Shown: positions 4,528 to 40,934 of the stretch, piece after piece
How the letters are laid out: each line of letters begins with the position of its first letter
How positions within the stretch are numbered: position 1 is the stretch's first letter
Source: Antedon bifida
Lineage: Eukaryota; Echinodermata; Crinoidea; Comatulida; Antedonidae
Length of the DNA: 64,000 bases
NCBI GenBank assembly: GCA_963402885.1
Contig: OY727096.1
Span: forward strand, 22,611,820 to 22,675,819
Direction of reading: 5' to 3'
The notes under the pieces: generated by a model
What the model was told of the DNA's origin: nothing
Databases searched by the model: none
Seen by the model: the letters and a program-made list of their open reading frames with translations, nothing else
Translations under genes and position numbers: made by a program

Positions 4528-6050
4528 ATTGTTGGTCTCTCACTCAATGTCAACTGAAAGCAGTCAATGACGGCCTGATGGTCTCAATAATGAGAACAAA
4601 ACAAGTAACAAATAACCGAATAAATAAATGGCTGCAATGCAAATAATTCTATTTTATACAGAAATTTCTCCATTTTAACGCTTTTTGAAATTATTTTTAG
4701 TTTAGAGTTTCTTAGATAAAATATATGTAGGTGAATTCATTTCACATTACAATTTGTTTTATGTACCCAAAAATCCGGGCGATTTCCGCTAAACGGCACG
4801 AAATCACCGAAAAACAGCTATTTTTTAAAGGTTTTTTCAATGTAACTTTGTTATTAATTGACCGATTTTTATGGTTCTAATTAAGTACCTACGATGTCAT
4901 GTTATTTTTAATTTAAAAAAACTTAACGTTTGACCTAGTTATCCAATGATATTGGCTGTTCCACCATGCAAAAGCTAATCAATCAAGCTTTCTAATGATC
5001 TAAAGTAAAATGTGATTGGTTCAGACACTTCGTCGGCACAGCCCCTTTTTTGAAGCAGTGTTTTGGTTTATCAGTGACCGGCTAGTGTTAAAAGATAGGC
5101 GAACATTTTCGAAGTCGTCCAAGCTTTCCTAAGCAGTCAGAAGGTAACGTTAAAACTAAAATTACAGTTGCTGAAAAACTACTTATCCAAAACGCTTTAT
5201 TTTTTCACGAAAGTTAAGAGTTATTATTCCTTATTTGTAATATGTAAATGTATTTAAGATAAGGCAACAGGATTTTTTATATAAGTAGTTTTAAAACAAT
5301 TGGTTTATTTGAAAACCACCAGCGTGGTTTTGCCGAATTGGCGGACTCGTCCATTTTACTAATAGGAAAAGGATTGTAGCACAAAACGTTGAATTTGACC
5401 TATATGGTTTCCATTTCTGTTTTCTAATGTCAAATTAATATTATATTATTAGTATCTCTATGTAATATATAATATATTCATATTGTACTAGTTAGCATCT
5501 ACATACCGTTATACTGCACTTTAAATTTGTTTTGGTGATTTTTCAATGAATTGTATACACAGGGAGTTGGTAGGCTATACTATACCATTGGTTCTACTAA
5601 AATTATTATTACTTTTATTTGTTTGTGCAATATTTGAAGATTGCTACAAAAATAGAAATAGTTTAAATAATAATATATTTAACAGATTAAGTGTACGCAC
5701 TATGCCTATGGAACAGATTACCTATCGGGCGTAGTTCAGTATGATATTCTATTATTACCTTCTGTATCAGCCTCCGCCCTTTTGGGCTTTTTTTCTACAC
5801 AATACTTATTGTTAATGTACCATAGTTATTTTAAATGGAGTAGTCTCCTAATAAATAGTTCTTAGCACTCTAACATTGTTCTTTTGTACCTATTGTATTT
5901 TTTTGTTTTCTTTTATTAAAAACTTTTGTTAACTGTCTGAAAGTTACCTCCTAGTAAAGTGGAACGACCCAACATGGTTCCTTAAACACCACTGTGTTAG
6001 GGAGCAGATTGAGATCAACTGATAAGAGCCCGACGCACTAAAATTAAATA
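4528..6050. other. CMAS 3' flank, no gene recognised
   Basis: After the polyadenylation signal I find no coding signal. The small open frame at 5546-5734 is AT-rich and has no family resemblance. Repeat-like phrases such as CCTCCGCCCTTTTGGGC at about 5770 suggest old mobile-element debris. Confidence 0.4.
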
Positions 6051-12290: not shown

Positions 12291-12968
12291 AAATTAAACA
12301 TAGCATGTTTAAAAAAAATACTACTAGACTTACTGAAATAACTACGCATGTTTATTGTTATTTGATAATTGAAAAAAAACTAGGTGAAACTCCCACTTTT
12401 ATTTTAAGATGTGTGTCCATTAAACAAGAAGAAAGGAATTAGACTGTATGCTTTGAACCTAAAATTGGTAAGCGCCAAACTACAGTGCCACTAATTTATA
12501 GAATCGAGTCAACCCAAGAGGGCTTATTTTATACCTCCATTGTCAAACCATGGAGGAAATTTCCTTCATGGTCAAACCAAGGAAATATATACCAACAGGA
12601 CACTAAGCTCGCCTTGCCAAGATAGGAACTCGTAAACATCCTTTAATCTTATGTCTGGCTGCGACAAATACCAACAGTACTATGTATTTTCTCCGTGACG
12701 AAGTGAGGTGTCTGTTAATAAGGGGCGTGTAACTGATCGTGTCGCAGCCACAGATAAGCCCTTTGATCTCCGGGGCTCAGAATCGTGTTATATAGATTGC
12801 CATGGTCAAGCTTACCTTCATGTACTTCTTCCCATCTAAACTTATGCTGACGAGTGACGGCAAACACTGAATCGTAATCACCATCCATGATCATGCGCGC
12901 AGGGTCCTGCAGATGCCACGGCTGAAGACATGGTGACGTACACTGGACAAGAGCCATGACGGTTACTT

Positions 12969-15532: not shown

Positions 15533-18500
15533 TCAGAGTGTAGGTGCTGATGATATGCTTGATTGACTCTCTGTTTTCTCAACAACAGTTTCGTTAGAGC
15601 TAACTTCATCGGGTGAATCTTTAGCCTTGCGATTACGGCTACGTCTTCCTCCACCTCGTTTTCCTTGCCCCCTGTAACTGTAATATTGCGGATTGGTGTG
15701 TACTGTTGAGTCACTGGTCGATGGTCCGGACCCTTGACCGCGGGCAGTCTGGTGATGGTGGTTATGGTAACCACGCCCTCGCCCTGATTTTTGTTTCTGC
15801 TTTTGTTCCGTTGGTGGAATATGTGGGAACACTTTGACTATTCTACCAACTGCTTTGGTCTTTCCTTCCCTAGAAAACAAAACAATTTTTTCTAGTTTCT
15901 TTTACGTAACTTGATGTTTCCATTTCAAAGGAATACTGTTTCGAATACAAGAAATATATTGAACTATTTTATGAAAAACTAAACTTACCTAAACACCATT
16001 CTGGTATCTTCATGAATGTATTCTGGATTCTTTATGAATCTGAAATGAACAATAGCTTTGTCTCCAGTCCTCAAGTGTTCCCTGTTCATATAAATGATTG
16101 ACGCTGTCTGACGTATACTACCGCAATGAACTAGAAAAGAGTATATTATGTGTTACTGTATATAATAATAATTATCATATTTCTATAGCGCCCTTTTCAT
16201 GAATAATCATGCTCAAAGGTGCTTTAAATAGCACATTATTACCCCCGTCATTTTTTTGGATCAAACACATATGAAAACATACTCCCATAATGCAACTAGT
16301 AATCAGCGCAAAGTGTCTTGATGTAACCGGGTACCCATTTTATACACCTGGGTGGAGAGAGGCAAATGTAAGTATCTTGCCTAAGGATACAATCAATACA
16401 GATCTGACAGTTGATATTTTAAAATTCTTACCCATAGCTTGATATCTGGCGCTGATAGTAGTTGGGTGATGCAAGACAAGAATTTCACCCTCAAATTCCC
16501 AGCATGCTTCAGGTTTTGTTTGCGGAGATATCATCACCATTCCTTTACGTACATGAGAACGTTTAATTTGCTGTTGAGAAATTACAAAATAGATTATTAT
16601 CATCATCATAATAATATCATAAAATTAGATGAAAAAAAATCCACCATTTTAAATAAATAACTGAAATCCAAAGGCAGATTACTGGAAAATGACAATGCTG
16701 TGGGTATCAGTGGCTGGATCTCAATGGAGATACAAAATAAAATAAGCAAAAAGCTAAATCAAAACGATAAAGTAAAACAGACAAAAAAATTAACAGAGCT
16801 TTTGAGAAACGCTAGCCCTTCATCAGTGCAAGTGAGAGTACTTAGACAAAATTAAGAATATAAAGCAGACAAGAATAACTTAATATACTGTACAGATGAT
16901 GACATACCTTTTTTAAAGCAAAAGAAGCAGTTTGTCCAGCCTTAACTACTTTGACAGGCATTCTTTTTCGGTGGATACTTTTAACGATCACAGACTGAAA
17001 CTGTCCGAGTGGATCAGGACCTAACAGTAATGTGTCATTTACTCGTATGACACCTTTCAAGGTCGTCCCTGAAACCACTGTACCAACACCCTGAAAGTAA
17101 TATATGACAATATTATGGTATAAACTCTGTACACAAATTATCATTATCATCTAAATATACAGTAGGACTCTTTCTTTGGAATACACCTATTCAGAGGACA
17201 CCCCATTTAAAAGGTGCCGTTTGGTGGCAGCACTCGACACAAAGGAACCCTTAGGGGAGAAGAAAATTGTGGTATGTGCCGTCCACACCTGTGCGCAAGT
17301 CGCAGGTTATTCCCCCCATTTCCCAAGGTGCAATATAATTATATGTTACTACAATCAACACCCTATTCAGGAGATCTCCCCTAAAAAGGGAAAATTTTCG
17401 AAGGTGTCCATTTAATAGAGGTTCTACTGTACACACGTCAAGGCATCTTTGCACTAAGCTAAGTATAATTGTTGTAATGCAAATTCATTTATAAGAATGT
17501 ACAGTATTATTTAGTTTCATGTTGTTAAAAAAGAAAAGCTTTAAATACGTACTGGAACAGAGTAAGTATCATCAATCTGGAATTCTGCAGGATCATTTTC
17601 ATCACATTTCATTCTTGTCGTCAGAAGATTCAAAAACATCTTGAGATAATCTAGATTCTCACCAGTTACGTTTGATACTTGGAAGATTGGACAGACTCTA
17701 GTAAAGAAACAAAAAACAATCCATTCATTTTTACAAAAGCAATATTGAAAAGACAGTGTATGGCCAAATATGGTCCACTCTCCCAATACCGGACTCTCAG
17801 AAAATCAGAAACTCTACCAAAACCAGCCCTTTTTAAAAATTTCATATGCATCCAACGAGAAACTCGCCAATTACAGGATGGATAAACTATTTTATAATTG
17901 AAACATTTTGCTTGAGGTCCAAACGTCTCAAATTCTTTTTGAACTTCAGAAACACATTCAGAAAACCAGACATAATATAGGCCAGCCTAAAGGTGTCCAG
18001 CATTGGGAGATTTGACTGTACAATACAAATCATCAAGATACTGTACCTCTCTGAGCTGAAGTTTGTTGCAGACGTGACAACATCGTCTTGGCTGTTTACT
18101 AACACCGGTATTTTTCTACAACCAGGAGACTTAAGAATTCTAAGCAGTAACTTTAAAGTATCTTGTAAAACGTTAGGAGGACACATATCAATCTTGGTCA
18201 CCACAACAAAAATTGGCACGTTTAATGCCAACGCTAGCCCAAGGTGTTCTTTGGTCATTCCTATGATACCAGCATTACTTCCAATCTGAAATAAACATTT
18301 TTTGTTATTCATCTGATTCGGGAGACAATGTAGGTTTTATCACTGTTACCCCTTTCACATCACCTTACAAGACATATGAGTTTACACACACCAGGGCACA
18401 CACCAATAAAAAAGCCAGTGTTGACACCCTGGTTTTTCTTCATCTTTAGGAGTTCCCATAATCATCATGTTGATTATCACAGAACTAGTCGTTGTGGTGG

Positions 18501-21500
18501 CAGTATTCACAGCTGGTTTTAGGTTTAGTTTTTATTGTTTGGATTTATTTCCTATATTATTTAATTTTTTATTATTTTTTATTTCTATTATTTTTCTTTT
18601 ATACTCTTTATTTACTTTTACAAGGCAATGTGACTAAGCCCTATTAAGGGGGGACGATCTATTGGTTCTCGGAGGTGTTCTTTTAACTTCTACTAATATA
18701 CATGATTCAAATAATCACTCACCATGAGCATACCAAAGTCAGGGACATGACCTGTCATCCCAAACACTGTAGTTTTTAAGTATTTCTCATGTCCAGCTAA
18801 ATCGATAAATGTTATAACCTTGGATGACTCTTCACAAATTCGAACCCAGTCCAAGTTACCTCCTGAAAAACCATAATGCAATTTAATTATGTAAGAGGAC
18901 CAGGTTTAACAAAAATTAAATTAGACAATTAAAATGTTGATATTGTGTATGTCCAATTATGCATTCAATGGTGATCATTTTAAGGTATAATATATTAATA
19001 CTGTACAATACAATGAAACATGTGACCTTTTTACAATTATACAGCTGTGTAATGTAAGTGAAACAATGGTACAATAACGTGCACTAATATTATGCAAGTA
19101 AGTTTAAGTCTACTGACTTGCACAAACAATCAAATTTAATTATTTGAATTCAAGGTGACTTGGAAGAACAATAGTCCACATACAAAGTAATTAAACAGTT
19201 ATCAATCAATCAACTGCTTCTACAGTACCAGTAAAAAAAGGAATTTGTATCTATACCATCACTGTTGGCAGACCACAAACTCTTTGTTCAATCCTAGTAT
19301 AATAATTTGCTTCTTTGTTTTTTATATAATTTAATCACCATTTTATACATGTGATTTATTATAATTCTCAGAATTTTTATTGTATTACTGGTAAATAAAT
19401 GTTTATTTAAATGAATAATCAAACACTTGTTATTGTATAGTAGAACCTATATTAAAGTGACACTTTTATGACAGAACAAAGTGTCCCCTTAATAGTGTTC
19501 CATGAATAGGGGTTTGCCGTAGTGTTAAACATATTTTTCCCCTCACTCATTTTACATAAAAGTGTCACCTTAATAGGGGTGTCCTATGAATGGTGGTTTG
19601 CCGTAGTGTTAAACTTTTATTTCCCCTCACTCATTTTACATAAAAGTGTCCCCTTAATAATTGTCGTAGTGTTTAAACATATATTTCCCTCATTTATTTT
19701 ACATAAAGGTGTCCTCTTAATAGGGGTGTTCTATGAATCGGAGTTGTCATATATTTCCCCTGATTCATTTCACATAAAAGTATCCCCTTATATGGTGTTT
19801 TCTGATTCTACTGTAGTTACCGTGCGAATCAGGCTTATTGACGACTTTGCCTTGACTATTAAAACCAAGTATATCATTTCCAACACTGCTGGTTCTTCCT
19901 GATTCCATTTCATGTTTATGACGGAACAGCCTCTGTCGGGCCAATCCTCTGCCGTTATCCAGTTCACCGTGAGTGAGTACACCTAGGAGAGTGCTTTTTC
20001 CAGCATCTACATTGCCCACGACTGCCACTCTGTATAATAGAAACAAATTATTTTCATATTCAAAGCAAATCGCTAATTAGAGGATGGATAAACTATCTCA
20101 TGCTTATTTTTGAAGAGTAGGGAATGGAGTAGAAACAGTAGATCAGGATTGAACTAAGGGCTTTGGGATTGGATTGGAAGACAAGCATGTTAACCACGAA
20201 GAGATATTGATGATAAATGCCACCCTGAATTATGTAACAAAAACATTATTTTATTTATTTATTTTATTCAGTTCACAACCAACAGCAATGAAACTGCCAC
20301 TAACAGGTTGAATCTAACAGTAAACAGGTACTACTGTACTTTCTAAGCCACAAAATAAAACTGGATTTAGACACAAGTGCAATAGTTCTCAATTTCATTC
20401 TGATATGATTCCATTTTTATGAGAAATTTGTTCTTACCTGACTTCTAAGAAATCTTCTTCTTCTGCTCTACCTCTGATGAGAAGTTCTTTCACGATTTTG
20501 TTGTTTACTTGGCGTTCTCTTAACAACACAACATCTGCGTTTAGCGTATCTGCCATGCCTTTTATTGTTTCTAGAGATTTTGTCATTTCCTCTTCTGACA
20601 AGCCGTCTTCTGTTCCATCACCTTTTGAAATAATTTTACAACAAATTCTTATTAATGACATTTTTTGTTTTCAATAGTAAAGCTCTGTCTACACTATCCA
20701 ACTTTATGTGACAAAAAAAATGTGATGTGCCCATATATGACATGATGATGTCATATCACGACTATATTTGGGCATATCACTACCATATTTGGGCACATCA
20801 GACTTTTTTTGTCAAACTAGTTTGATAGTGTAGACAGAGCTTTAGTTAATATTGTTTACATTTGATAAATTGATAATAGTCAATAATAAATACTAATTTT
20901 TACCTCCTTGCCCCACTTCATATATAGCCTCACTGTGGCCATCTTTCAGTCGTTGTTCCAACTGTTTTAGTAAGTGCTCATACATTTCTTCATTCGGATT
21001 GACAAATCGCGTCTATAAAACACAATTTACATTATTATTATTATGATAATATATTCATTTATTTATATATATTTACATCACAGGCACACAATAATTAATT
21101 TATATAAATATATGTTCAAATGACGCCTTCTCATGAGTACCCCAGTTATTTTGATAAAAAATTTAAAAAAATGTATGGAAACTCCAGCGAATAAATTGAA
21201 GTGGAGTGAAAAAAAAAGAAAAAAGTCATCAACTGTGTTGATTAACTGTAAGTTTTAGTACCATACATAGCCTTGTTGGAAGTGTTTTATTTTAAGAGTA
21301 AGACTTATTGATTTATAAAAACTGTAATAAAAACAATAAGTGTTATTTAAGGTGAGTTAACAATGGATGATGAGAGCTTTTTTGGCCATTGGAATACAAT
21401 GACAACAATGAATGGATATCTGGACATAATGAATGAATCCTAATTTAGTGTACAACAATACAGAACAGTAACAATCGTCTCACACTGAGCATAGTAACTA

Positions 21501-26077: not shown

Positions 26078-26136
26078 GTTTGAGTATGGAGGTATAAAAA
26101 TAGTATATAATATTTTTATACCTCCATGGTTTGAGT
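26078..26136. mobile_element. 43-bp palindromic mini-element with perfect 8-bp target duplication
   Basis: Element 26086-26128: arms ATGGAGGTATAAAAATA and TATTTTTATACCTCCAT around GTATATAA. Flanks 26078-26085 and 26129-26136 are both GTTTGAGT. Eight-bp duplications are typical of hAT transposons. A sister copy lies at 33871-33905. Confidence 0.8.
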
Positions 26137-26160
26137 TTCTCCGTACTTTAGTAAATTATC

Positions 26161-26205
26161 ATTCATTCGTTCGTTCGTTTATTCATTCATTCATTCATTC
26201 ATTTG
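26161..26205. repeat. ATTC microsatellite
   Basis: Consecutive ATTC/GTTC/ATTT tetranucleotides. Confidence 0.9.
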
Positions 26206-27240
26206 TCTTTATCGGCTTACTTTATCCATAGTAGGCCCAATGGGTGCGGCGTTTTAACGGTTGGTGATTGATTTAATACATTTATAAAATCGTAGGAATC
26301 AATTATGTCCTCATCAAATTTAATATAAGGCGTGGTGATGTTAACTTTTTTAGCCTGAAACATTTAAACATGGTTTGAATGTGTTTTAGGCATCGGATCG
26401 GAGTATGAGAGGTCGTATTTGTGTATGATTTTGTAGCGCTGTTGCATTCCATTGGTGGCCAACGCGATGTCTTTTTGGAAGTAAAGTATACTTTATACCA
26501 TCCGAATAACTTTCTAATAATAACACAAGAATTAGGGAGGCGTACATTATTCGAACAAGACGCGTGCCGGGCTCAGTAAATTATTGGTAGTTTTATCTGC
26601 AGCCTTAAAACAATTCTCGTTATTAAACTTCACAATAGTAAGCCTAGCCTATATGAAGTTATAATTAAGTTTTCATAATTTATTAATTGTTATGTTATGG
26701 GTAACCGTATAGTTTAGTTGTTCTTTGGTTACAGGTGCCATTATTCTTTGTTAAGCCCTAAAACCCTTATGCAAAACATGCAGATATTATCATAGGCCTA
26801 ATAAAGTAAATTTCAATATTTGAAATTCAAAAAGATATACAATTTTTAACGTTAAAAATTGTATTTTTAAATTATTGTTTGAAGGTTTGCAAAATCAAAT
26901 GTTATATAAAGTTTGTAATATACGTGGTGTACCGCACGCAAACTTTATATCAATATTTTAAAATTGTTTCCCACATGCCAAATTCTTGCTGCAATTTGCT
27001 TTCGACAAGTTAAAAAAACGCAACACCACCCTCTATAAATACAGTAACGTTATTAGCTATTAGGTGGCGCTATTAAACATATTGTTTTTGTCAGGAGGTG
27101 TCAGCAGCAGGGTTTGAAAGCTTACTTTGTTTATTTAATTGTTCTAACATTTTTATTTGATTAAATAGAGTAATATTATTTCTTTGCTATTTGTAGCGAT
27201 AATTTTGTTTCTAATAAACCGTTCCGTTATCTCATGGCCA
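26206..27240. other. Noncoding stretch upstream of the candidate gene
   Basis: Nothing recognised beyond a short inverted phrase TACAATTTTTAACGTTAAAAATTGTA at about 26835 and a paired AACTTTATAT / ATATAAAGTTT phrase near 26900-26950. Confidence 0.4.
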
Positions 27241-27597
27241 TCATACTCCCATATATAAAACAGAAGTCATGAATTTGTCAGCATCTGAAATTTGTTGCTT
27301 ATGCCGCCCTCTACAGATCACCAAAGTTTTTCACGTCACGTGTTGCGCCCAATCAGACGACAACTTAGATTTAGCGCACGGCGATTTGAGTTTGAATTTT
27401 GGTAGGAAAAATAAGATCAATTTTCATTTATATTTTCACAATTGTCACCAATTTTATTATACATTATTGTGTCTAGACTATGTTTCTTATAAAAAATGTA
27501 TAATAATCTCTTCAGTTTTAACTATATTTTATAAATTAATTCAGCACCCACACTACTCACTTTTGCACCACTCTCACGAACTAACTCACCTCAGCAG
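27240..27597 (+). promoter_or_regulatory. Candidate promoter and 5'-UTR exon of an unidentified gene
   Basis: A TATATAAAA sequence (27251) precedes a GC-richer patch with a GTCACGTG E-box (27334-27345) and CCAATC (27349). A consensus donor CAGCAG|GTAAGG follows at 27597/27598. An open frame (27269 on) may be coding or leader. Inference from motifs. Confidence 0.35.
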
Positions 27598-27659
27598 GTA
27601 AGGTCAGAGTCCAGCACGTCTGCTGGTCTGACGCTTTCAACTAGCCTAGGATATTGATA

Positions 27660-29163
27660 AATAAATATACAGTCATTAATCATAGAAGTTATGTTAGACC
27701 TATATCCATTAATAACAATGTTTACGCCTTTTAAAATATCTTCTTTATACTAATACTCCATGAATAAATATTTAAAAAAGAGAATTTTATAAACGTATTT
27801 GTTGGTAACAGTTATAACCAGTGTGTGTTCCACCACCACCTTCCCCTTCCTATTTGAAAAGGTGGTTTCCACTCTTCCCACCACCCACCTGCATGTGAAA
27901 TTGGCCCACATGTTTTTTATGTTTGTTTTTGTAGGAAATAAACAACGAAAAAGAAAAGTTTGCCAATATTTTCATTTTCTTGAGTTTATATATTTTACGA
28001 ACCATGACCTCCATAATGGTAATGCTTAGGCCTGTATTATGACTGGCTAAGCTACCACATACATATGACCTGCCAATCTTGAGTTGATCATGTGAAATGT
28101 TACTTTGCATATGTGATTAAAATCTAGTTTACCAAAATCCTGCACCAAAATTTGGTGCTGATGAAAAACCATGTAATACATTGTTTCTGGCTTTACATAC
28201 AAATATCATTCTTAAAATTATGATCCAAATTTGAAGAAAACATTTTGCTTGGAGAAACACAAATTGTAAATTGATTTAACTTGTATAGAAGTGGAAAGGG
28301 GCACGTTAAAGGAAGTACATGTGAGAATGTTCAATGATATAAGTAAGTGGCCCCTAATGTAATTAAGTATTTAAGATTCTAAAGTTGACGTTAATTCATG
28401 AATATTCTATACAAGATCGCAATGTAACATAAACCACAAAATGACCGACTTGTTTTGAAATCGTAGCCCTTGCCCTTAGTTGTAGTAGTAAGAATTTGAA
28501 GTAAACAGTTATACAAACACTGTTGATCAAATGAAAATCTTGCAACCATAGTGGACTACTCAAATTTCTTGCACCTAATGACTCAACTGTGGTTGCTATG
28601 GATGGGACAGGTTGCTATGCAGCTGTTTAGGAGTGGAGATGACAGCAGGTAGTTGTTGAGTGGTCTCATGAATATCCGAAAAAAAAAAGTGAAATAGAAT
28701 GTGTAGGATAAAAATTTAATAGGTTTTATGTAACAAGATTGTAATTTACATTCACATCTATTTATAATAAACAATATTTTTTTTAACGTTTTCCAGCAAT
28801 ATTGATGGATAAATGAACCTGTTGCACAACTAATTTACTTTAGCCTACATATCATGTCTTATTTTGATTTTTAATACTAAATATTGAAATGCTTTATTTG
28901 TCCATTATCATAATAAAATAACATTAGAAATTCATCTTAAAGATTGGCAAATATTAGTACGATAAAAAACATTAAATATAAAATTCACCTCCTTGATGAT
29001 TAGTTTTTCTTCCATTCACTTTTATTCATAGGTGCACTTGGCACCTTTTTCTCGTTACCCAAAGTTAGTTTACCAAAAACACATAATAGCTAAAACTTGT
29101 TTTAATATGAGAATTTAAATATTCTATTAAATGTAATTATATTATTTTTCAGTTATCTTTCAG
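27660..29163. other. Putative first intron of the candidate gene
   Basis: No repeats or coding signals beyond simple sequence and CACC-rich patches near 27830-27890. Confidence 0.35.
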
Positions 29164-32100
29164 GATGATGTACAGAACTTCCTTATTAAACCATGGTAAG
29201 TAAAAGCATAAATTACACAACAGGTTTATTTATGAATCGATATCACATCATTTTACGGTACTAATGATATCTGAAGAAAAAGATAAATATACCATATACT
29301 GTACATCGTTCTCAAATCATATTCAATACATTACCATAAAATGGAATAAACTTAATGACAGTTTAAAAACTGCTAAATCTATATTTATTTTTAGAAAAAA
29401 AAAAGTTAAAAAGGTTTCTAATTTCAAATTATTAATAACACTCATACTTTAAAACAATTTTTTCTGAAATGTTTTTGTTGCTTTGTAGTTGTTCTTGTCA
29501 TCTTTTTCTTTGAGATCCTTGAAATGAAATGAAATCGAAAAACCATATCTGTAAATAATTTTGGTGTGTTTTATTACAAGAAAAAGATAAATATACATAT
29601 CCAATACATTACCATAAAACAGTGATAACTTTATTCCGTTTGCTTTAAAGCCTCTGTCTCAATATTACATCAGTAAGTCTGACTTAATCACACGTTAAGA
29701 ATGGAACATGTCAGAATTGCCAAGTTTAGGATTAATGACTTCTGTTTTGACTATATAAATTGTAGAGGAAGCTAGTTTTCATATTATGCCTACCACATGT
29801 TCTTTTGGTTACTTCATCTCCTTTGAGAGTGGCTATCATATTTGATTGATTATTACCTGAGTTTTTGAAGGTTGTTTAGGGAGTTCTAGTTTATGATTAA
29901 TCTAACATAGTTTTTTTTTGTTTAATGGTTTTTGGTATTAAAACGCCTTATGCTGGTGTGATACATATACCAGTTGCAGAGGTGTAGAATCCCATGAGGA
30001 ATTCGGTAGACATGTGCGTCATGTTCACCCTAGTCCTCTAACCCCTTTCTATAATCATTGAGGTAACATTATGATGAGAAAATAACCCAAAGTTGACTCG
30101 ATTATTATTTAATTTTTACACTGTTAATGCGTCATGTTTGCGTGGTCAATTTACGTTGATTTTAATAATAGAAGTCATAAAAATACTTGTATTAAATATT
30201 AAACATTCCTAAATTTACAAGGATTGACGACTATGGTTTATGTTATACATTCCCAAAGAAACACTATTTCTATGTCAGTATTGGCAGAACCTCCAGCGGG
30301 TTAACGTCTATGAGTGCTCACTGGTTAAGGGAGAGCTTAAAGGACCCCAGAGCATGAGCTATGCAATGCAACTACCCAGCATTAGATCACTAAAGTAAAT
30401 CAGGGGCCTCTTCTCCTGCATTACACCACTTGGAAGACCTTCATGAGCTAACAAAGTTTCCCTTGAATATGGATGTCCCAAAGGAGGGGTTTACTGCATT
30501 TTTATGTAATATATAAAAACATTTCATGTCAGAAAACATTTTTATTAACTGGTATGTTTAATTTATGTATGTAAATGTTGGTAAAACACTCAAGTGTTAT
30601 TTGAGTTACACAAAATTATGGAGTTGTCGTGAAGTAATGAGAGTTCCTTTTTGAACAATTATGCAATAATGTTGTAGACACCTGTGAATATAGGAATTTA
30701 ACAGTATTAAAATTGATAAAATGAGTATACTGCCCTCTTGTATTTGTTGTGGCGAGTTGACCTGAAGATATTGTATTGCATAAAGTAATAAGTGACCAAA
30801 CTGAGTTTGGTGTTGAATTCTATGTTGAATGAAATTAGAGAGATGGCCACCATCACTGACAATTCTTCATGTTTTTTGTAACAAATTGTTCAGACAAAAA
30901 GTTATTAAAACTTGACTAGTATCAAAAAAGTAATAAAAACTCCTTTATTTGTTCAAAATACAGATATACTAAAACAATGCTTAGTTGCCAAATCATTGTT
31001 TCTTTATTTTCAGTGCGAAAAAATTAATAAGTGAGTGTTTTGTAGCTTTTAAGCAAACAAACAATTTCTATCAAGTTTAAAAAAAAAATAAGAAGGGGAT
31101 GAAGAGGAACTAGAATTTGCCTTTATAAAATGTACTTTTTTCCTATAATCTCTTATAATTTCTTTTTTTTAAATTGCATAATTTGAAACCTGACTTGTGA
31201 TCAACATGTGTTACATCTTTACATTAGTTTTGTGATGTCAATGAAACTAAACTTCAACTAACAATAACACCCTATTCCTCAGAGATACAAACTTTGTTAG
31301 TTTCAGTTCCGCACATCTACTTCATCCATGAAAAAATGTAACAGTTGTATAACAATATATATACAGTATAACAATATATATACAGTATAAGGACACCCCT
31401 ATTAAGAGAACAATTGCCTGTGGAATGAATTATACTATGGCCAACCCATATTCTGGGGACACTTTGTTTGGACCTGAGGATGTGTCCCCTTTATAGGGAT
31501 TCTATTATAATGTGAATATTAGTGTACAATATTATAGTGTACAGTATTTATAGTATACAGTATTTATAGTATACAGTTATTGAATTAATGTTCCACAACC
31601 ACAAAACCAAAACACACCCCATCCATCCACTTCCAAAGTAGAGAGGGGATGGGGTGTTATGGGGAAGGTGATTTGCAGTTTTAAAGTGTCTAGACACTCA
31701 AACCTGTCTCCAGTGGATTAATTGTGTATGTAATTGATGGTTAAAATCTGGTAGAAGATTACATGATGTTTCTTGGAAGACCAATAGAAATGAATGAATT
31801 CCAGGATGTTTAGTTTGAATATGTCCTGTGATCACCACATAAAAGGATACAGTGGTGTACATAATAGAATTTGAGACCTTGATAAATTATGCCATTAAGA
31901 AACTGTTTAAATTATTGCGTACCTGTCAACTCTATGCGTTTCCTGAAGTCTTTAAAATCAATGCTTAATCATTATGTTGACAATATAACAAATGTAGTTA
32001 AATTATTGGCAATGGCATCCTTAAACAAGTGTTGGCAGGATCGTATGTGTGTTTGAAATATTGACTGAGCTCTTTACAGCCCTATGACCAACAAGAAGCT

Positions 32101-35100
32101 AAGCCTGAATCTGCATCGTGTCACTTTTATCGTCCAACTTTGCCACTTACCAACAGTACAATTCAATTCAATTCAACTAAACATTTATTTCTTCCTTCAA
32201 TAAAATTAGGTAATCATAACAAATTCAAGTAAAATATCAATCAATTGATGAAACAAAAAAAGTACAGAGAACATCATCAAACCTGTAATTAATTATTTAA
32301 ATGTCACAAAAATAGGAACTTCAGTCCCCACAGGGATCTGGTTATAAGCGCACAGCCCCAGCTAATAAGTTGATCTGGGCCTCCGTGGTTAAAATAAAGT
32401 TGAATTAAATTTATAAATATAATAAAATAATAATAAATACATATTAAATGTTTACTCTTTGATTTCAAATAATGTGATGTTTAAGGATAGCCCAACCCAA
32501 TCCATTGTTCATTAAACCCACCTTCAAGTTCATTACATAACATCCATGGACCACAAACTGTATTTACATCATTATGTCCCAAGGTTACAAGTATATGAGT
32601 CAAAAGCAATTTACGATGTTTACAACTTGTGGTGTATGACTACTTCAGAATATTTACAACTCATTTTCCTGTTGTTTTAAAAGCTTTACTCACAGGTAAC
32701 TATTTCCTTCATGCCTACAGGCAGATCCAGGTAGGGGAAAACAAAGGGAGGGGAGGGGGAATGGGGAGTTTAAAAGAAAGGGAGGGGAGGGGTGGGGAAT
32801 GCCAGATCTAGGTAGGGGTAAAACAAAGGGAGATATAGGGAGGGACCGTGTTAGATCCAGGTAGGGAAAAACAAAGGGAGGGGAGGGGGAATGGGGAGTT
32901 TAAAAGAAAGGGAGGGGAGGGGTGGGGAATGCCAGATCCAGGTAGGGATAAAACAACGGGAGGTGTAGGGAAGGGACCATGTTAGATCCAGGTAGGGAAA
33001 AACAAAGGGGGGGGGAGGAGGGCTGTAAGGAGGGGATTATGTTGCAAAAAAAAAAAAGTAAATGAAGTGCTAACCCTATGTCCTATGACAACTGTATAAA
33101 TCCTTTTTTTAACATTTAGCCCTGACAAAGCAAAGGAAATAGGAAGGAGTTTTCCAAAAGCTTGGCATGTCTGCCTGATTTATTTTATGGTTTTGATTTA
33201 CATATTTGCTTATCTTATTTGAATCTCCATTTTCCATTAAATTGCCTTTGAATTTAATTTCTTTAACATATACTTTGTATAATATTATAACTATAACAGT
33301 ATAACAGTATTACACATTCAAATTAATCCTTATCAACGAAATAGTTTTTTGTTCTTGATGATCTTTATATGCAATTTTTCTTAAAATCGCAGAACTACGT
33401 CTCTGTCAACACTTTCATGTTTTAAACTGAAGTTTAAGTTGATTTATTTGCCTTTACAATTCCATAACATGACATACCTAAAAAGCATAGCGTGTTATCA
33501 AGCCAGAAATATAACACTTCTACGGTTCATGCTATCACCTAAGACCCCAAGACATTATGCTATTTTCCCTTAATATTTCACAATTCAACATTCCAATTTT
33601 TGCTTTTTTTCACACCGGAACCAGAAAATGAGAAAAGTCTGGGAATATCTAATTTTCAGACATGCATTTTAATCATTATAACTCATTTATACCAAGGGTA
33701 CAAATTTGTTTAGAATACTGTAATAATAACAGTATTATGGATTTATTATTTTATCCATTCATTTGTATGAATGATATCTCCTTTCATACCGGAACCAGAA
33801 AAAAGAGAAGTTTATCTGGCGATATCTACATTTCAGACATGCATTTTAACCATTACAAGTTCATTCATACCATGGAGGTATAAAAATTATTATTATACCT
33901 CCATGTTCATACTGAGGCTACAACTTTTTACCTTACCATGATAATAATAACAGGACTGATTTATTATTTATCCATCTGTGTGGACGATGATCTCATCGTT
34001 TATGGCATGCCCATAATTTGAAAGAAAAATGAAAAATAATTAAATGTCAATTTGTGGTAATTACCATTTAAACCGTTTTATTATATTCCTATCAGACATT
34101 TTAAATCCTTTAAAGTACTGGATACTATAAAAGGGAAGTGGCCAAGATGGACATACAGTTTAAAGTTATCCTTCTTATTGTAGTGATTTGTTAGGGTGAC
34201 TTAAACTAGATAGAATATTAACCACACTTTAAACTCAGACAAGATCAATCCAGTGGTGTGAATCTCAGGGCATTAACTCATCAAAAATATATTTCTTTTC
34301 AAATGATTGAAGCATATTTAATTCTATATCAGATTTAGAATGTAATCCTAAAAAATAAGTGTAGAAAGTTGGTTTAAATGTTCTTAATTCTGGCTATTTT
34401 GTTTAGATTGTTAATTTTCCCCAAGATGAATTTTTGTTCATTTTATATGTGTTATTACCCTAAAATGTCCACATCCAGCAAAATCAATTTGAGGTACCAC
34501 TTTTCCCAGGTTTTAAACTTTAACTACTACACTATGACTCTTTGCCTACTAACAGTAGCCTACCCATAAACCCTTGGAAGAGCCAGTAGACAACATTTAT
34601 TTGTGCTTTTGTGAACCTCTAGTCTTTGGAGGAGATGGAGAATAGGACCTAATATTTTATTTCTTTCATTCATAATAATTATATGAAATGTATCTAAAAA
34701 CAGTTGACATGTCAATAAGCTTACAGCATTTTTATTGAAATTATTTTTTCACTAATTGTTAAATTAATAAACTTGACAATATCATTTATTTAGTATGAAT
34801 AATTATTAAGAATTGAAATATATACATACGTGTATTTTACAGCATTCTAATTGTGTGGCCTACTACTAAAATTAAAAGATTGCTGAAATTAAGTGTGCGT
34901 GAAAATATCTTTCATTATTTAAAGTCAGTGCACTTAATTAACTTTGAAATCAAGAACCAAAGTCAACTTCATGTTTGTTCCACTTGTGTGACTTTCTAAG
35001 ACATTTTAAATAAAAGTCAGATATAAAAAAAACTAAGTAAATATTTTGTTACTTATGCCCAGAGGTTCTTAAGTAAATAATTCATCAATAAGTACAGTTT

Positions 35101-36914
35101 AGTAGATGAGTTTTTCAATTTTTTCTGGGTGTTAAATTGTAAACAATTTATTTGTATTGAATTGCAGTACAGTTTTTTCCATATTCTGACATACAAGTTT
35201 GTGTATAAATAATGTTACAATTTACATTTTTCTTGTTATACATTTATATTTATTAATAGTGTTTGAACAAAATTTGGTTGGAGGAAGAGGAAGATTGTTT
35301 TGTCTTGTTACCTATACCTAATTTGTTTACCTTTCTTTCTGCAATACATATTGTTTAATCTTGTATGTTTTATTATTTTCCCTCCTTATTTATGTGTTTT
35401 GTCTGTACTATACTCTATTTCATGGATGTACTGTTTAATACCAAATATACCATCATTTGTTTACCAATTGCCACTAGTCTATGGGCCTGTTTCTGCTGCA
35501 ACTGCTCAAAATACGGTATAAAAATACGGTATAAAATACGGTATTTTTTATACCGTATTTTTTAGTACCCCGTTTCTGCTAACAATACTTCTTGGGTGGT
35601 CGTGTTAAATTTCATCTTTTTTACCCAAATTGCCATTCATTTATTTGATCGATAATTAAAAGTCGCAATAAAGGAAGTTTTACGTCTCACTTTCAACAGC
35701 CTAGCCCTAGTGATAGAGATGTTGTGAGAGCACAGAAAACATCGTAATGGGGACAATTAATTCGTTCCCTCCCCGAGTTATTGTATTTTGCAATGTTGTA
35801 CTGCTTTCGCAGGCTCTTCAGCTTTGAGTTTACTTGCTTTGGAGACAAGTTTATTCCATACTCCTGCTTTATTTTTTTAGAAATGTCTTTATAAATGTGG
35901 TTGTCCCTTTTATTACCTTTTAGTTGGTCAGACATTTTAGCTTCCCCACACACATTTATTTAGTAAAACTGTGACGTATTCGCTCCACATTTTCGCCGAA
36001 TATATCTATACATGTGTGTAAAGCAGCTAACAGCGACAGACAATAAAAACACGAATGGTGACCTTTTGTCATGTAAAAAAAAAATACGGTATTTTTTATT
36101 GGCAGCAGAAACGGGTACAAAAAATACGGTATAAATTTGTAAATACCGTATTTTATCCACAAATTTTGTGGGGAAAATACGGTATACAAAATACGGTATA
36201 TTTTTTATGAGCGCAGTTTCTGCTGCCAAAAATATACCGTATATATACGGTATTCAAAAAATACCGTATAATATACGGTATTTAGTTGGCAGCAGAAACA
36301 GGGCCTATGACATGAATATATATATTTAATTTAAAGCTCTATCTACACTAATAAGTCACTATCATTATTATTATTATTATTTATTCAGGCAAAAGATACA
36401 TTTTACAAAATATAACACAAATCAACAAATTAAACAAACACGACGTAAGAATAAAATATAAAATCATAGTCACTAGCTGCCAGGAAAGCACAAAAGCAGC
36501 CTAAGCCACTGTCACCAATTAGGTGTGTACCTCCAACCAGTGAAAACAAAAAAATGTCATGTGCCCATATATGGACATAATGATGTCATATTTTTGTCAA
36601 ACAAGTTTGAGAGTGTAGAGAGAGCTTTAAGTATTATAAAAGCTATTAACTATAGAAGCCTGGTACTCCAATGCACTACCCCTTTAATATTCTTTCTTTT
36701 GTAATTAAATTAGAACAGCTTATGAATTGGCTATGTTTACTTGGTTTATTATTATTTCCCTGTAAAGTAATTATATATCAATGTCACTAGAGATTGCATT
36801 GAAGATAAAGATTTAATTCTTTATTTCTGTTGTTATACTTGATTGTTGATAACTTTTCTTTCAGACAAACAACTTCGACAGTTGAATGGAGAAAAATCCC
36901 AAGTTACATATAGA
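29164..36914 (+). CDS. Candidate start of an unidentified gene (two short exons)
   Basis: A 32-nt exon 29164-29195 (TTTCAG acceptor, CCATG|GTAAGT donor) carries ATGATG with A at -3. It joins in frame to 36866-36914 (TTTCTTTCAG acceptor, AGACG|GTGATC donor) to read MMYRTSLLNHDKQLRQLNGE and then KSQVTYR. I do not recognise the protein; the charged, heptad-like pattern suggests a coiled-coil start. The donor after 36914 is weak, and the bases around it resemble repeat sequence near 33985. A stronger donor at 36933 would follow an in-frame stop. No convincing further exon was found to 64000, so if real it has very long introns or runs off the window. Confidence 0.3.
29196..30280. other. AT-rich noncoding stretch with small direct repeats
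   Basis: AAAAAGATAAATATAC followed by CCAATACATTACCATAAAA occurs near 29279 and again near 29580, an imperfect duplication with about 300-bp spacing. Otherwise nothing recognised. Confidence 0.45.
30280..30440. mobile_element. Dispersed repeat (GAGTGCTCACTGGTTAA family)
   Basis: Shares TATGAGTGCTCACTGGTTAA and GCATTACACCACTTGG wording with 61880-62045 (CTATGAGCACTCACTGGCTAA ... GCGTTACACCACTGG). Diverged, non-coding. Confidence 0.5.
31362..31511. mobile_element. CAGTAGAACC-family MITE remnant
   Basis: ATACAGTATAAGGACACCCCTATTAAG near the left edge and GTGTCCCCTTTATAGGGATTCTA at the right match the family termini; core AACCCATATTCTGGGGACACTTTG also fits. Preceded by a duplicated TATAACAATATATATACAG. 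Confidence 0.6.
32155..32440. mobile_element. SINE-like repeat with ATTCA/GAATT-rich ends
   Basis: Starts with repeated ATTCA units (32161), passes through AACTTCAGTCCCCACAGGG and GATCTGGGCCTCCGTGG and ends TTAAAATAAAGTTGAATTAAA. The mirrored ends and unique middle resemble dispersed repeats of marine invertebrates. Confidence 0.45.
32721..33055. repeat. G-rich minisatellite, 131-bp compound unit
   Basis: AGATCCAGGTAGGG recurs at 32723, 32854 and 32985, with AGATC(C/T)AGGTAGGG variants at 32804 and 32934, so the unit is 81+50 bp. Dense GGGAGGGGAGGGG runs could form G-quadruplexes on the plus strand. Confidence 0.9.
33611..33980. repeat. Imperfect tandem duplication of about 170 bp
   Basis: First unit 33611-33780, second 33784-33980. 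Shared anchors: CACCGGAACCAGAAAA / ATACCGGAACCAGAAAA, TTTCAGACATGCATTTTAA, AATAATAACAG and ATTTATTATT...ATCCAT. The second unit carries the 35-bp palindromic insertion. Confidence 0.8.
33864..33912. mobile_element. 35-bp palindromic mini-element with 7-bp target duplication
   Basis: Element 33871-33905: CATGGAGGTATAA, 9-nt spacer, TTATACCTCCATG. Flanked by TTCATAC on both sides (33864-33870, 33906-33912). The tandem sister unit has an uninterrupted site at the matching place (TTTATAC, about 33691), which acts as the empty site. Confidence 0.8.
34020..35479. other. AT-rich noncoding stretch
   Basis: Nothing recognised; the open frames here are T-rich and low in complexity. Confidence 0.4.
35480..36308. 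mobile_element. Harbinger-like non-autonomous element with nested relative
   Basis: Element 35483-36305 (823 bp) has inverted ends GGGCCTGTTTCTGCTG... and ...CAGCAGAAACAGGGCC, flanked by TAT on both sides, a 3-bp duplication as in PIF/Harbinger. A second pair of related ends (GTACCCCGTTTCTGCT at 35567 and AGCAGAAACGGGTAC ending about 36117) and a third fragment (GTTTCTGCTGCC at 36219) indicate insertions of relatives into one another. About a dozen TACCGTA/TACGGTA palindromes crowd both subterminal regions, likely transposase-binding repeats. Confidence 0.75.
35693..35953 (-). pseudogene. MYB/SANT-like (Myb_DNA-bind_4 type) DNA-binding ORF of the Harbinger-like element
   Basis: The frame reads SDQLKGNKRDNHIYKDISKK, then INLSPKQVNSKLKSLRKQYN and on to a Cys-containing end. 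This is the pattern of trihelix MYB/SANT-like domains carried by Harbinger transposons (QLxGxxRNxxxYxxIA...QxxxKxKxLKxxY). The expected first helix (WSEYVTVLLNK) lies just upstream in a neighbouring frame (about 35985-35955) and runs into a stop, so a single-base slip near 35940-35956 separates the two. No ATG opens the long frame itself. No transposase (DDE) ORF is present. Confidence 0.65.
36333..36629. mobile_element. AAGCTCTGTCTACAC-family MITE interrupted by another repeat
   Basis: Left end AAAGCTCTATCTACACTA at 36333 and right part GTGCCCATATATGGACATAATGATGTCAT...GAGAGTGTAGAGAGAGCTTT ending 36629. The middle (about 36360-36545) is a different repeat beginning with an ATT microsatellite and TTATTCAGGCAAAAGATAC. 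Confidence 0.75.
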
Positions 36915-40864: not shown

Positions 40865-40934
40865 TAAGCTCTGTCTACACTATCAAACTCATTTTGTTTG
40901 TCCCATAAAGTTTGATAGTGTAGACAGAGCTTTA
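40865..40934. mobile_element. AAGCTCTGTCTACAC-family MITE, 70-bp terminal-only copy
   Basis: TAAGCTCTGTCTACACTATCAAACT and AGTTTGATAGTGTAGACAGAGCTTTA almost meet, with only about 18 nt between, so the core is deleted. It would fold as a near-perfect hairpin. Confidence 0.85.

Follow-up and report, generated by a model that had tools for sequence, protein, structure and literature searches.

What gives rise to palindromes of a few tens of nucleotides, each set between two copies of a short target sequence, in the genome of the crinoid Antedon bifida? We examined this question in a 64,000-nt stretch of contig OY727096.1 (positions 22,611,820 to 22,675,819, hereafter the window), in which an earlier sequence-only reading had described two copies of an ultra-short palindromic mobile element with 7- to 8-bp target duplications, mobilized in the manner of hAT transposons. 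Our analysis indicates that these palindromes are very probably excision footprints of P-superfamily transposons rather than an ultra-short mobile element or a hAT product. Target site duplications (TSDs), a limit of about 20 nt on the tails, variable junctions, and longer elements with the same ends are all seen in the sequence, as are P transposase genes with homologous ends and the palindromes predicted from those ends.

Palindromes between duplicated targets in the window

We found both of the reported copies in place, each as a short CATGGAGG...CCTCCATG palindrome with its target duplicated on each side. The pattern GGAGGTATAA(N0-30)TTATACCTCC occurred twice in the window and 0 times in 100 shuffles. 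Copy 1 is a 44-nt footprint at 26085..26128, the first base of which is T in place of C, between 7-bp target duplications GTTTGAG at 26078..26084 and 26129..26135. Measured against the 33-bp repeat of a 909-bp element in locus L038 (described below), copy 1 is made up of a left tail, TATGGAGGTATAAAAATAG, matching the repeat over 19 nt (with T in place of the initial C), an AT-rich filler, and a right tail of 18 nt. Copy 2 is a 35-nt footprint at 33871..33905, with a left tail of 17 nt of the repeat and a right tail of 13 nt (the right one read from the sequence), between 7-bp duplications TTCATAC at 33864..33870 and 33906..33912. The duplications of both copies were located from the sequence and by a blind scan, and all of these features are given without strand. 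A sister tandem unit without the insert, at 33608..33732 on the + strand, carries the empty site TTTATAC. The proposal that this neighboring unit represents the empty site for copy 2 held, with an alignment score of 137 when the insert and one TTCATAC were omitted versus 120.

The blind scan of the window sought an exact 7-mer repeated around an insert of 18 to 60 nt in which 8 or more of 9 arm bases were palindromic. It returned three places, which start CATGGAGG or TATGGAGG and all have ATGGAGG at the start; in 30 first-order Markov sequences the mean was 0.1 and the maximum 1. These places were the two copies above and a third, previously unreported copy, GTCAAAC/CATGGAGGAAATTTCCTTCATG/GTCAAAC, at 12542..12577 (no strand). 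A fourth, decayed copy (GTCAACC/CAAGAGGGCTTATTTTATACCTCCATT/GTCAAAC; 12508..12548, no strand) has a duplication agreeing in 6 of 7 bases and has its right duplication in common with copy 3; 12508-12577 thus holds two adjoining footprints with one target copy in common. Locus L115 also has a second short palindrome beside the first, and both places look like single sites that were hit repeatedly. The TATA-like stretch of the arms, TATAAAAATA, belongs to the terminal repeat of longer elements.

Genome-wide abundance and a 7-bp target duplication

We searched the 315.6-Mb assembly (27 contigs) and detected 155 exact palindromes of the form GGAGGTATAA(N0-30)TTATACCTCC, 516 ends CATGGAGGTATAAAA, and 424 two-armed places CATGGAGGT(N4-34)ACCTCCATG with arms of at least 9 nt, with 0 matches to the reversed-pattern control in each case. 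The genome scan therefore bore out the view that there are many copies, and the controls of 0, both in window shuffles and for genome-wide reversed patterns, ruled out chance palindromes. A further end variant, CATGGAGGTAAAAAAT, was observed among the 424 places (G000:C1:27039331-27039376 and C7:3032745-3032790).

The surroundings fetched were those of the first 100 listed of the 516 ends, a non-random set from C1 and C7, and of further exact palindromes. Counts of TSDs and arms required CATGGAGGTATAA, which left out L005, L012, L013, L104, L105, and window copies 3 and 4, and L062, L093, and L102, which repeat other loci, were merged with them. One palindrome may count from both strands among the sets of 100 and 118 ends given here but not among the 56 unique copies with an exact TSD that form the set used below. 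The flanking 7-mer recurred exactly within 62 bp for 61 of the 100 distinct 15-mer ends, compared with 1, 3, 1, and 1 of 100 when the 7-mer was shifted by 10, 15, 20, and 25 bp. When one mismatch was allowed, 78 of 100 ends had a 7-mer repeat versus 13, 18, 10, and 10 of 100 for the shifted 7-mers. In a wider set of 118 ends, 78 had an exact 7-bp repeat beyond the insert and 40 had none, versus 1 to 4 for shifted 7-mers. Target duplications far beyond chance, which the earlier account had predicted for further copies, were thus found, at a length of 7 bp (61 of 100 versus 1 to 3 of 100). The eighth base agreed in only 19 of the 61 exact-TSD ends on either side, about the level of chance, and the duplication is therefore 7 bp. 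The suggested range of 7 to 8 bp narrows accordingly to 7; the 8-bp pair GTTTGAGT at copy 1 is correct as letters.

Several loci have variant ends of the type CAGGG...CCCTG in place of CATGG...CCATG (L005, L012, L013, and L104). L013 has an exact 7-bp duplication, and L005 and L012 agree in 6 of 7 bases. A search of viral contigs matched two palindromes, around which we saw no flanking 7-bp repeat by eye.

Variable inserts and a 20-nt limit on the tails

Among the 56 unique exact-TSD copies, we observed 55 distinct inserts of 14 to 50 bp. The longer arm matched the six known repeat variants over 14 to 20 nt and beyond 20 nt in 0 of 56 copies, with 19 to 20 nt reached in 21 of 56. The limit here thus lies at 20 nt and not at the 17 nt of the Drosophila type. 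The 20-mer CATGGAGGTATAAAAATAGA has 66 exact genomic copies, only 12 of which continue exactly to AGGAGA, and only 19 genomic ends continue exactly into AGAAGGAGA after at most 8 bases; three such continuations fall in the 100-end sample (two of L038 and one of L039). At C13:1297220-1297259, two whole 20-nt tails are joined head to head.

Many copies were without most of one arm, and L083, L098, and L057 (the last with one TSD mismatch) had nearly no right end. An arm is short or missing in ATTTGAC[CATGGAGGTATAAAAATAG]ATTTGAC (L083), ATTGAAC[CATGGAGGTATAAA]ATTGAAC (L098), and ATTGGTC[CATGGAGGTATAAAATTATCCATG]ATTGGTC (L046), and sequences of this type lack a complete second transposon end. As in excision footprints, remnants of ends lie between both target copies (exact in 61 of 100 ends and in 16 of 20 loci of a second family described below), and the junctions vary through trimming, microhomology, or filler, as the 55 distinct inserts attest. 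We did not find among these copies the common interior between two complete ends that many copies of a miniature inverted-repeat transposable element (MITE) would have.

Longer elements and P transposase families

Longer elements with the same ends exist, as the sequence-only reading had anticipated. At locus L038 lies a 909-bp element whose 33-bp repeats, CATGGAGGTATAAAAATAGAAGGAGAGAGCTCG, are identical and whose TSD is CTCAAAT, and L145 holds a 1.53-kb element with the TSD AGCCAAC; neither has a transposase. Eight copies, L038 and L145 included, span the whole 909 bp or nearly so.

P transposase models matched the genome 18 times for PF12017 and 58 times for PF21787, against 0 of 14 control genomes for each. 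Family A (L036 and L037) combines a P transposase gene with repeats starting CAAAGATCTTATA and 7-bp TSDs, CTACAGT and CCTATAC. The second family is represented by 6.45-kb elements, L146 and L147, that are 99.9% alike over 6456 bp and have 34-bp repeats CATGGAGAAATAAGTTAGGAAGGAGTAACATCGA with TSDs CCAAAAC and GTGGAAG. Fifteen PF21787 matches, L146 and L147 among them, have an identical score. Open reading frames (ORFs) of L146 matched PF21787 (2.8e-24) and PF21788 (8.1e-12) above the cut-off, and PF12017 reached 21.5 bits, under its cut-off of 23. The L146/L147 repeat CATGGAGAAATAAGTTAGGAAGGAG is homologous to the repeat of the window's family, the two aligning as CATGGAGAAATAAGTTAGGA/AGGAG versus CATGGAGGTATAAAAATAGA/AGGAG. 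The traits of the P superfamily are thus present as transposase domains in L146 and as inverted repeats with TSDs at both ends in L146/L147, L036/L037, L038, and L145. In both the window's family and the second family the TSD measures 7 bp, not the 8 bp of Drosophila P and zebrafish Pdre2.

L039 has one CATGGAGGTATAA-type end, with P transposase fragments (PF12017, PF21787, and PF21789) 1.8 to 4.3 kb inside, and no second end was found within the 11.5 kb read. The second ORF of L146, convergent and 347 amino acids (aa) long, lies at 4551-5594 on the - strand and has a DUF7229 match under the cut-off. A 124-aa relative of this ORF lies in L039 (E, 6e-11) and has 20 matches, 15 of them about 2.5 kb from second-family PF21787 matches.

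We rejected C8:15163650 (L144) as an autonomous element. This locus (G000:C8:15163650-15166400) is a large, 2.7-kb inverted duplication, the arms of which have a one-armed CATGGAGGTATAAAAATAGA end in common, and the stretch recurs in L063 and L093.

Palindromes predicted from the transposase-bearing families

If the palindromes are P excision scars, families with a transposase gene should own such palindromes. Patterns built from the second-family ends matched 182 palindromes (control, 0). In 20 second-family loci, hand-chosen with recurrent products in excess, we observed an exact 7-bp TSD in 16 (all 16 different) and a TSD with at most one mismatch in 18; 0 of the 20 matched as an 8-bp repeat. 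Arms reached 20 nt in 5 of the first 50 listed of the 182 places.

The ends of family A matched 26 palindromes (control, 0), one of which lay inside a family A element, close to the end of that element (C10:16372569). Of 20 fetched loci, 9 were exact at 7 bp, 2 more had one mismatch, and 3 were exact at 8 bp (L125, L133, and L134); the number of independent loci is below 20, as L124/L130 and L133/L134 are copies of one scar each. L132, included in the nine, has a longer inner stretch outside the 20-nt limit. The TSDs of the window's family and of the second family tend toward (G/A)TTNAAC, and the nine family A TSDs agree with it in part.

Two family A loci, L122 (C1) and L129 (C8), have identical 25-bp flanks on each side and the identical TSD ACCAAAC but inserts of 40 and 29 bp. 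This pair is what would be expected of a duplicated site bearing two different scars, as if the element had left each copy separately, although a deletion that arose later within one scar could explain the difference as well.

Recurrent products and microhomology at the joints

We analyzed the joints of the first 50 listed of the 182 second-family places, with duplicated loci kept in, against a null of uniform truncation over 11 to 20 nt, the search pattern requiring 11 nt on both arms. A 27-bp insert accounted for 13 of the 50 places versus 6% in the null (p ~6e-6), and microhomology of at least 2 nt was present in 19 of 41 filler-free joints versus 14% in the null (p ~6e-7). These two results are not independent, since 13 of the 19 microhomology joints are the 27-bp product. 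At the joint, the commonest second-family product shows 3 nt of microhomology and the next shows 2 nt.

Proposed excision by a P-type transposase and its alternatives

A P-type origin of the palindromes would proceed as follows. A P-superfamily transposon ending CATGGAGGTATAAAAATAGA/AGGAG... inserts and duplicates 7 bp of its target. On excision, the transposase, presumably P-type in the window's family as well, would make a staggered cut, cleaving one strand at the terminus of the element and the other about 20 nt further in, so that each broken chromosome end is left with some 20 nt of single-stranded tail. The break would then be closed by end joining, probably with tails trimmed variably, at times aligned by a few matching bases and at times joined with filler. 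The product would be a palindrome between two target copies because the two tails have the same sequence in inverted orientation.

Alternatively, the palindrome could itself be an ultra-short mobile element, or micro-MITE, that a transposase recognizes and moves. Such an element would explain why 7-bp TSDs occur at many sites, as well as the single 27-bp product at 13 of 50 listed second-family places, 6 of 8 fetched copies of which have exact TSDs, all different. It would not be expected to show 55 different inserts among the 56 unique window-family copies, copies without one end, arms that match at most 20 nt when the longer element has a 33-bp repeat, or microhomology of 3 nt and 2 nt at the joints of the commonest second-family product and the next, and we regard it as very unlikely. 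From the original description of a mobile element with target duplications, we therefore retain a transposon-derived insertion, its TSD, and its many copies; the palindrome as the mobile unit does not survive the diversity of inserts and the copies almost without a right end.

hAT elements have 8-bp TSDs, and target duplications near 8 bp with short inverted ends would suit hAT-type MITEs or hAT footprints. However, the duplication is 7 bp (eighth base, 19 of 61; second family, 0 of 20 as an 8-bp repeat), and homologous ends occur on an element with P transposase domains, a comparison in which hAT transposases were not searched for. Mobilization by hAT, proposed from the target size, is thus unsupported at both points and appears extremely improbable; the longer elements sought under that proposal (909 bp and 1.53 kb) exist. 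We likewise give hardly any weight to internally deleted P elements arising from interrupted gap repair in place of end-joined scars. The 0.9- to 1.5-kb elements do resemble nonautonomous derivatives, but gap-repair endpoints would be expected anywhere in the element, whereas 0 of 56 arms match a known repeat over more than 20 nt (the 21- and 22-nt exceptions below aside).

Some observations count against the P-type excision model. Microhomology in the window's family did not exceed a random-truncation null (mean, 0.94 versus 0.84; 17 of 56 filler-free). The 20-nt limit is exceeded by arms of 21 nt in 2 of the 50 second-family places and by 1 of 103 ends (L048), also at 21 nt; L111 is symmetric for 22 nt, yet leaves the known repeats after 17, and its own repeat may be an unseen variant. 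Some repeat variants are without an intact element as a reference for arm length. At the flanks, 22 of the 100 sampled ends (two of them L038 and L039) had no TSD even at one mismatch, at least 1 of the 78 one-mismatch TSDs, that of L038, matches only by chance within an element, and 6 of the 20 fetched family A loci had neither a 7-bp repeat with at most one mismatch nor an exact 8-bp repeat. Finally, the search around L039 and L144 yielded no autonomous element bounded on both sides by precisely the CATGGAGGTATAA repeat, and the ratio of scars to elements is only a guide, as exact patterns miss decayed elements.

With that reservation about the ratio, it seems reasonably likely that in this lineage P transposases place their inner cut about 20 nt from each end rather than 17, and that germline excisions are so frequently closed by end joining that scars far outnumber surviving elements. 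Several hundred natural repairs of a single defined break would then be preserved in this genome, and cut position, trimming, use of microhomology, and choice of target could be read from them. In total, 632 places in one assembly matched the three palindrome patterns (424, 182, and 26), and the cleavage stagger and the outcome of end joining can therefore be estimated without experiment. The same approach should serve other genomes with P-type elements, with the warning that P-type scars can pass for ultra-short mobile elements.

Other features of the window

A perfect 98-bp inverted repeat with a 19-bp spacer at 1491-1705 is probably a different foldback element. We also observed a palindrome cluster at 35508-36283 built on ATACGGTAT, unlike the P-type ends described here, and a perfect 24-bp inverted repeat, AAGCTCTGTCTACACTATCAAACT, at 40866-40932. 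Split exons of a translational GTPase (PF00009 and PF03144), perhaps GTPBP1-like, lie at 16842-20076 on the - strand.

Comparison with known P-type systems

The mechanism proposed here is a known one; its scale, the 20-nt limit with the longer stagger that it would imply, and the 7-bp target are what differ from known cases. A search of one open-access library by titles and abstract openings returned no survey of P-element scars across a natural genome, and the P-element scars described in the literature found were from Drosophila. The P transposase of Drosophila cuts 17 bp inside the repeat (PMC7776569), and the repair products consist of a target copy, a tail of at most 17 nt, an insert, a second tail, and the other target copy (PMC2895639). 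The palindromes of A. bifida resemble these Drosophila melanogaster excision products in the order of target copy, repeat tail, optional insert, inverted tail, and target copy, in ends that begin CATG, and in tails shortened by varying amounts (PMC2895639). In contrast to the 17-nt tails and 8-bp target of Drosophila P, tails here reach at most 20 nt and the target is 7 bp, and whereas the Drosophila products came from induced breaks, the scars here are natural and stand in an assembly (PMC2895639).

Two other members of the superfamily each resemble the A. bifida families in part. Galileo, of Drosophila, also has 7-bp TSDs of palindromic consensus, GTAGTAC in that element, but its terminal repeats are long and internally repetitive, and the target here leans instead to (G/A)TTNAAC (PMC2775673). 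Pdre2, the THAP9 P-like transposon of zebrafish, is likewise of P type, comes from outside the insects, and has a short repeat that begins with CAT, but its 13-bp repeat CATACCTGTCAAC and 8-bp TSD set it apart from the window's family (PMC10983969).

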